Source of the DNA: an uncultured Alphaproteobacteria bacterium
GTDB lineage: Bacteria; Pseudomonadota; Alphaproteobacteria; HIMB59
Length of the DNA stretch: 64,000 nucleotides
Reading direction: 5' to 3'
NCBI GenBank assembly: GCA_902616855.1
Contig: CACMUL010000002.1
Location: 62,001-126,000, forward strand
Below are positions 39,092-39,695 of the stretch, piece after piece. The translations under genes and the position numbers were made by a program. Position 1 is the stretch's first letter. Each line of letters starts with the position of its first letter. A model generated the notes under the pieces. The model was given only the letters and a program-made list of their open reading frames with translations. It was not told where the DNA came from and made no database searches.

Positions 39092-39119
39092 CTTGAAATT
39101 CAAAATTGAAATCCCAAAT
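39092..39119 (+). promoter_or_regulatory. Sigma-32 (RpoH) heat-shock promoter of hsp20
   Basis: CTTGAAA at 39092-39098 and CCCAAAT at 39113-39119, 14 nt apart, closely match the heat-shock consensus CTTGAAA...CCCCATNT with one mismatch region in the -10. The predicted start would be near 39126, leaving a leader of about 83 nt before the hsp20 ATG. Confidence 0.72.
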
Positions 39120-39128
39120 TAAAAGTAA

Positions 39129-39204
39129 GAGAAATTGCCATTTGGAATTTCTTTATTAACGCAGGTTTGAAAACTGCAATTTACAATTAACGCTTAAGGA
39201 GGTT
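39129..39204 (+). promoter_or_regulatory. Candidate RNA thermometer in the hsp20 leader
   Basis: The leader can form a hairpin AGAAATT-gccatttgg-AATTTCT (39130-39152) and a hairpin GCAGGTTTGAAAACTGC (39161-39177). The Shine-Dalgarno region TAAGGAGGTT (39195-39204) can instead pair along its full 10 bases, including three G-U wobbles, with AATTTCTTTA (39146-39155), closing over the second hairpin. Wobble-rich sequestering of the Shine-Dalgarno in a small-heat-shock leader is how ROSE-type thermometers work. Not recognised as a canonical ROSE motif. Confidence 0.5.
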
Positions 39205-39208
39205 AATT

Positions 39209-39658
39209 ATGACTACATTTGACTTATCTCCTCTATGGAGATCATCAGTTGGTTTCGATGAGTTTGATAAACTTTTTGATACCGTCTTTTCTACGAACAA
39301 TAAAGGTGCTTCTTATCCACCTTATAATATCGTCAAACATGATAAAAATATTTACCAAATTACCATGGCTATCGCCGGTTTTGGTGAGGACCAAATAGAT
39401 ATATCCCAAGAGGGTAATCTTTTGACTGTTAAAGGTGAAATGGGTGATGATAAAACTATGAATAAATCAGAATATCTTTATCGAGGAATTGCCAACAGAA
39501 ATTTTGAGAGAAAGTTTGAGTTAGCTGATACTGTAAAAGTTATAGAGGCTGATTTAAATAATGGTCTGTTAAGTATAAATCTTGAAAGAGAAATACCTGA
39601 ACACCAAAAACCTAGAAAAATAAAAGTTAATACGAATTCTAAACTTTTATCAGCTTAA
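39209..39658 (+). CDS. Small heat-shock protein (Hsp20/IbpA family)
   Basis: A 149-residue alpha-crystallin-domain chaperone (core about 38-135). It starts MTTFDLSPLWRSSVGFDEFD, typical of alphaproteobacterial IbpA-like proteins, with NIVKHDKNIYQITMAIAGF near 41 and the conserved GLLSINLEREIPE near 116. It holds unfolding proteins for refolding by DnaK/ClpB. It has a strong SD (AAGGAGG, 7 nt before ATG), a sigma-32 promoter and a folded leader, so heat control at two levels is likely. A bidirectional terminator follows. Confidence 0.95.
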   Translation: MTTFDLSPLWRSSVGFDEFDKLFDTVFSTNNKGASYPPYNIVKHDKNIYQITMAIAGFGEDQIDISQEGNLLTVKGEMGDDKTMNKSEYLYRGIANRNFERKFELADTVKVIEADLNNGLLSINLEREIPEHQKPRKIKVNTNSKLLSA

Positions 39659-39667
39659 ATAAAAAAA

Positions 39668-39695
39668 TAGGGCTGCTTTTTTATAAGCAGCCCTA
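39668..39695. terminator. Bidirectional terminator between hsp20 and sodB
   Basis: TAGGGCTGCTT (39668-39678) pairs perfectly with AAGCAGCCCTA (39685-39695). On the minus strand a TATTTTTTT tract follows (sodB end); on the plus strand the tail is weaker (AATATTTAATCT). It ends both converging genes. Confidence 0.88.

Follow-up and report, generated by a model that had tools for sequence, protein, structure and literature searches.

A predicted ROSE-like RNA thermometer in the hsp20 leader of a HIMB59-clade marine bacterium

Described thermometers and the hsp20 locus

The described systems closest to the leader reported here are the ROSE elements, whose motif is defined as U(U/C)GCU (PMC3669281). 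In rhizobial ROSE (RF00435), the leader of an hsp20 gene folds into several hairpins, the last of which sets the Shine–Dalgarno (SD) sequence against a YGCU strand with a conserved G. The ibpA leader of Escherichia coli K-12 is an experimentally known ROSE element (PMC3669281), assigned to ROSE_2 (RF01832); its upstream bulged-G hairpin carries CC-UGAU-GG, and a second hairpin and a UCGCU strand opposite AGGAG complete the arrangement. A short ROSE-like type is known from Pseudomonas ibpA (PMC3669281; ROSE_3, RF02523). E. coli IbpA is also reported to repress itself via its own leader, which requires R93, R97, K98, and an aromatic residue at position 34 (PMC10474464).

The DNA analyzed here (the window) is a 64,000-nt stretch of a 1.13-Mb, 76% complete genome, the relatives of which are single-cell and metagenome genomes labeled HIMB59, Alphaproteobacteria, or Pelagibacteraceae; AEGEAN-169 is the same clade as HIMB59 (PMC10308909). 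An open reading frame on the plus strand (39209–39658) encodes an IbpA-type small heat-shock protein of 149 amino acids (hsp20). It matched Pfam HSP20 with 65 bits, had NCBIfam IbpA as its top model (153 bits, under the cut-off of 212), and shared 50% identity with E. coli IbpA. The gene is flanked by an opposite-strand quinone reductase gene on one side and an iron superoxide dismutase gene on the other. Between the convergent hsp20 and superoxide dismutase genes lies a terminator-like hairpin of 11 pairs (39668–39695), which has its T-run on the minus strand and could be used in both directions.

Upstream of hsp20, CTTGAAA (39092–39098) and CCCAAAT (39113–39119) are separated by a 14-nt spacer on the plus strand and constitute an RpoH (sigma-32)-type promoter. 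The pattern CTTGA-N15-17-CCCAWAT had a single match in the 1.13-Mb genome, namely this promoter, and the -35/-10 pair was present in 86 of 86 family leaders with a spacing of 14–15 nt. Comparison of the upstream sequences showed that the spacing is identical in E. coli ibpA. RpoH itself is encoded in the genome (above the curated cut-off), so that both features used to define an RpoH regulon, a CTTGAAA box placed 13–15 nt from a CCCCAT-like box and the RpoH sigma factor, were found. These results bear out the first-pass annotation, which had assigned a sigma-32 promoter to an Hsp20 gene. Judging from the promoter sequence, RpoH would drive hsp20 transcription under heat stress. Transcription is predicted to start at 39126 on the plus strand, about 7 nt past the -10 box, giving an 83-nt leader.

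The hairpin that holds the Shine–Dalgarno sequence

The minimum-energy fold of the predicted transcript consisted of three successive hairpins, the third of which contained the SD sequence (AGGAGG, 39197–39202; invariant in relatives). Only 2 of 200 dinucleotide shuffles folded equally well (z = -2.56), and the identical fold was obtained for nearly all of 66 distinct HIMB59 and SAR11 leaders. Hairpin III (39185–39208, plus strand), the proposed thermosensor, lies directly 5' of the AUG and is composed of AAUUAAC (39185–39191), a bulged G39192, CUU (39193–39195), a loop AAG, GAG (39199–39201), and GUUAAUU (39202–39208). Four of the five GGAGG bases were paired, and this local arm was the partner of the SD sequence in both the minimum-energy fold and the ensemble. 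G39192, which is bulged opposite the SD sequence, was invariant in HIMB59 and SAR11, as is expected of the conserved unpaired G of ROSE elements; this is the geometry of the ROSE thermosensor. The counterpart of the U(U/C)GCU motif is ACGCU (39190–39194), in which A39190 pairs with U39203, the SAR11 leaders having a U-A pair at this position.

We compared hairpin III with its SAR11 counterpart, UUUAAUC-G-CUU-AAG-GAG-GAUUAAA. Four of the seven lower pairs differed by A-U/U-A swaps, that is, by two-sided changes, and across HIMB59 and SAR11 pairing was possible in 95% of cells, as against 80% after shuffling and 31–64% when the arms were slid. Inside the HIMB59 family, hairpin III was almost invariant (86 loci), and its covariation therefore rests on one HIMB59/SAR11 split. 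In one family genome (L064/L117), C39191 is replaced by G, so that the closing C-G pair is lost. MAFFT alignments with gaps inside helices were excluded from the pair counts; in the alignments used, N padding in the loop keeps the arms in register and leaves the paired columns untouched. RNAalifold on the first MAFFT alignment detected no covariation, as expected given the gaps inside its helices.

Opening the SD sequence was calculated to cost 7.8 kcal/mol at 25 °C, which ranked fourth among 53 window genes (median, 3.3). The isolated hairpin III and the equivalent E. coli ibpA hairpin were equally stable (both -4.6 kcal/mol at 37 °C). When the longer E. coli ibpA leader was folded, the SD hairpin was not the minimum-energy choice, which shows the limits of such folds. 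Nearest-neighbor folding at increasing temperatures predicted that the leader weakens gradually, without a switch point. This gradual melting, together with the several window genes whose start regions are equally costly to open, would agree with a local hairpin that arises simply from the AT richness of the leader and the strength of its SD sequence, free of any temperature control. We nevertheless regard this explanation as improbable: hairpins I and III covary, the 24 nt before the ATG are almost completely conserved over 86 loci with protein identity down to 69%, and, as described below, ROSE models recover relatives at sub-threshold scores and each genome has one strong copy, at hsp20 only.

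The first-pass annotation had described a leader that sequesters the SD sequence behind a heat-shock promoter in a streamlined marine bacterium, and this general description holds, given the promoter conserved in 86 family leaders and the covariation in relatives. It had, however, named a different partner strand. At low temperature, the SD-containing strand TAAGGAGGTT (39195–39204) would pair with AATTTCTTTA (39146–39155; both on the plus strand) in competition with an upstream hairpin, making the leader a non-canonical, fourU-like thermometer. All ten bases can indeed pair, with three G-U wobbles, but this complementarity alone is weak evidence because about 4% of the 69-nt stretches of the window hold a ten-pair partner for the SD sequence (about 12% hold a nine-pair partner). 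Forcing the pairing gave -15.3 kcal/mol at 25 °C versus -26.3 kcal/mol for the supported fold, a cost of about 11 kcal/mol, and partition-function calculations put its ensemble probability near 0 over the range of 5–50 °C. Among 35 distinct family leaders, the probability that the SD sequence pairs with any far-upstream partner was at most 0.022 at 25 °C.

Most close relatives retain 8–10 of the ten pairs because the arm is pyrimidine-rich, but the most diverged family members (G002, G008, and G009) have just 4–6 left, with the SD sequence invariant and no compensating change. In these three, the changed arm equivalent to AATTTCTTTA still pairs with the 5' arm of hairpin I through two-sided changes. 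We accordingly rejected sequestration by AATTTCTTTA, which has hardly any probability left and is concluded to play no appreciable role; this strand is the 3' arm of hairpin I, stable and covarying with its own 5' arm, rather than a competitor for the SD sequence. What folding and covariation in relatives do uphold is sequestration as such, brought about by the local hairpin at 39185–39208, which was overlooked in the first reading and is evident in the minimum-energy fold. The label "non-canonical" also gives way, the architecture being ROSE-like: upstream hairpins come first, and in the 3' hairpin that follows, the SD sequence lies opposite a YGCU strand containing a bulged G. In a fourU element, a U-rich strand would be set against AGGA, as in the first-proposed pairing; here, the partner of the SD sequence is AACGCUU, whereas the U-rich strand sits in hairpin I.

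The upstream hairpins and possible chaperone self-regulation

Hairpin I (39129–39153, plus strand) has the form GAGAAAUU-[G39137]-CC-AUUU-GG-AAUUUCUU, with a bulged G and a CC/GG pair of dinucleotides beneath the loop. Its sequence was highly variable, whereas the bulged G and the CC/GG were kept in the window family and the sister family. Over these two families, its pairing was preserved in 96.4% of cells (68.4% when shuffled and 34–51% when slid), its covariation value was 0.833 versus 0.278, and two-sided changes were found in 7 of 10 pairs. A search of both strands of the 64-kb window for the bulged-G hairpin motif returned a single occurrence, the hsp20 leader. Comparison of selected loci (L106, L109, L110, and L126) showed that the order stem, bulged G, CC, loop of 3–5 nt, GG, stem (39137–39145 in the window) is common to HIMB59, the sister family, three Hyphomicrobiales loci, and E. 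coli ibpA. Hairpin II (39161–39177, plus strand; GCAG-loop-CUGC) was invariant in 13 diverse family leaders and is present in SAR11 with other sequences.

Since a chaperone of this type represses itself in E. coli, the leader might mainly be a binding site of its own Hsp20, which would keep translation repressed until aggregates draw the protein off. In this view, Hsp20 would dock on hairpin I, where the bulged G and the CC/GG are conserved, and the thermometer would be a second layer or vestigial. R97, R101, K102, and Y36 of the window Hsp20 match R93, R97, K98, and Y34 of E. coli IbpA, and equivalents of R93 and R97 were found in all relatives examined. The strong covariation of hairpin I and a design shared with the sister family, Hyphomicrobiales, and E. 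coli ibpA point in the same direction. Hairpin I could instead stabilize the mRNA or guide folding, as has been suggested for Pseudomonas (PMC3669281), and we consider binding by Hsp20 as the main function of the leader unlikely, although it is compatible with, rather than exclusive of, the ROSE-like explanation. As the window Hsp20 has all four of the E. coli IbpA residues, chaperone self-regulation is a plausible second input. More broadly, and only tentatively, hairpin I may be the site of Hsp20/IbpA self-repression in alpha- and gammaproteobacteria alike, in which case ROSE leaders, including those of bacteria that rank among the most abundant in the ocean, would be two-input devices reading temperature through hairpin III and chaperone titration through hairpin I. 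Hairpin I is thus a specific candidate site for such self-regulation.

Returning to the ROSE-like explanation, which we prefer, hsp20 transcription would be turned on by RpoH under heat stress. At growth temperature, hairpins I and II would form, and hairpin III would pair GGAGG with AACGCUU, leaving one G bulged, so that ribosomes initiate poorly, as in validated ROSE elements. On warming, the weak hairpin III, rich in A-U and G-U pairs and interrupted by its bulge, would be expected to loosen while hairpin I stays closed, and its opening would allow more of the chaperone to be translated.

Distribution and relation to known ROSE families

We built a covariance model (R1) restricted to the window's family, using 13 of its leaders. 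Of 52 family genomes, 45 yielded a single strong R1 match, which in every case ended at the start codon of hsp20; the remaining seven are incomplete, and hsp20 was likewise not found in them. Thus, in all 45 family genomes that have hsp20, the element occupies the position expected of ROSE elements, the 5' untranslated leader of a gene for a small heat-shock protein. R1 was also run on 22 SAR11 loci; its hits included the hsp20 leader at every one, with an E value under 0.02 at 12. A class-wide search of 289 genomes gave matches in the window's genus alone, under strict filters that do not bound the true range.

The Rfam models gave a graded picture. Among 4227 families, ROSE (RF00435) was the best for two SAR11 leaders, covering all 94 model positions at sub-threshold scores of 20.4 and 21.0 bits (E = 0.26 and 0.2). 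In five genomes of the sister family, ROSE_3 (RF02523) matched just before hsp20 at E values of 2–5e-4 per genome, likewise sub-threshold, and these leaders have a two-hairpin UUGCU form. No match in these relatives reached the gathering score, the window leader itself was matched by no Rfam ROSE model, and searches of its own genome and of relatives with RF00435 and RF02523 gave no match at the hsp20 leader of the window's family. The motif changes with lineage, being UCGCU in SAR11, UUGCU in the sister family, and ACGCU in the window, where CGCU is kept and an A stands in place of the first U, compensated by a U on the opposite side.

The window element shares with rhizobial ROSE its place in an hsp20 leader, its several hairpins, and a last hairpin that pairs the SD sequence with a YGCU strand bearing a conserved G; it differs in being unmatched by the RF00435 model, in having ACGCU for U(U/C)GCU, and in being very A-U rich. 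The E. coli ibpA leader resembles it down to the upstream bulged-G hairpin, but is longer and scores 100 bits with ROSE_2, whereas the window leader went unrecognized by Rfam. Compared with the short Pseudomonas type and ROSE_3, the window element has three hairpins and its leader is unmatched. This number lies within the two to four hairpins of ROSE elements, the 3' one of which sequesters the SD sequence, as it does here. Because its ACGCU departs from the literal U(U/C)GCU, we do not count the element as a plain member but classify it as a variant, specific to its lineage, of the ROSE-like thermometers of the HIMB59 and SAR11 clades.

Together, the local SD pairing, the covariation of hairpins I and III, the restriction of R1 copies to hsp20, and the sub-threshold ROSE matches in relatives argue that the 83-nt leader is very probably a ROSE-like RNA thermometer, its temperature response being a prediction. 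The equal stability of the E. coli ibpA hairpin, the high cost of opening the SD sequence, and the conserved RpoH promoter with rpoH in the genome add to this support. Against it we count the unmatched window leader, the A in the motif, the single HIMB59/SAR11 split, the broken pair in L064/L117, and the gradual predicted melting. ROSE-type control would thereby reach streamlined marine bacteria that have few regulators (HIMB59/AEGEAN-169 and SAR11), and R1 provides a comparative model that detects leaders missed by Rfam. A switch set for seawater, not for 42 °C, would offer a natural case for testing the tuning of thermometer RNAs. A 2019 survey of the SAR11 strain HIMB5 genome lists a "possible RNA thermometer", the gene being unnamed in its text (PMC6429828). 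This may be the SAR11 counterpart of the hsp20 leader element, for which Rfam 15 has no dedicated match; if so, the SAR11 part of our results was partly anticipated there.

The Hsp20 proteins themselves show an uneven kinship. Those of the window family share about 62% identity with SAR11, 50% with E. coli IbpA, and 42% with the sister family of their own order, which stands apart on a long branch of the Hsp20 tree (L063, L111, L071–L101, and L127–L146). This pattern suggests replacement by a paralogue or transfer of the gene plus its leader. Moritella hsp20 leaders (L102, L104, and L105) contain, just before hsp20, AUAUUGCUCAAUGGAGAAUAU, which is a ROSE-like hairpin of the UUGCU type, preceded by an upstream hairpin of another kind. 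A HIMB59-type hsp20, with a leader almost the same as that of L108, was also found on a contig filed under a gammaproteobacterial metagenome-assembled genome (L065, JAURFX010000079.1), which was probably mis-binned.
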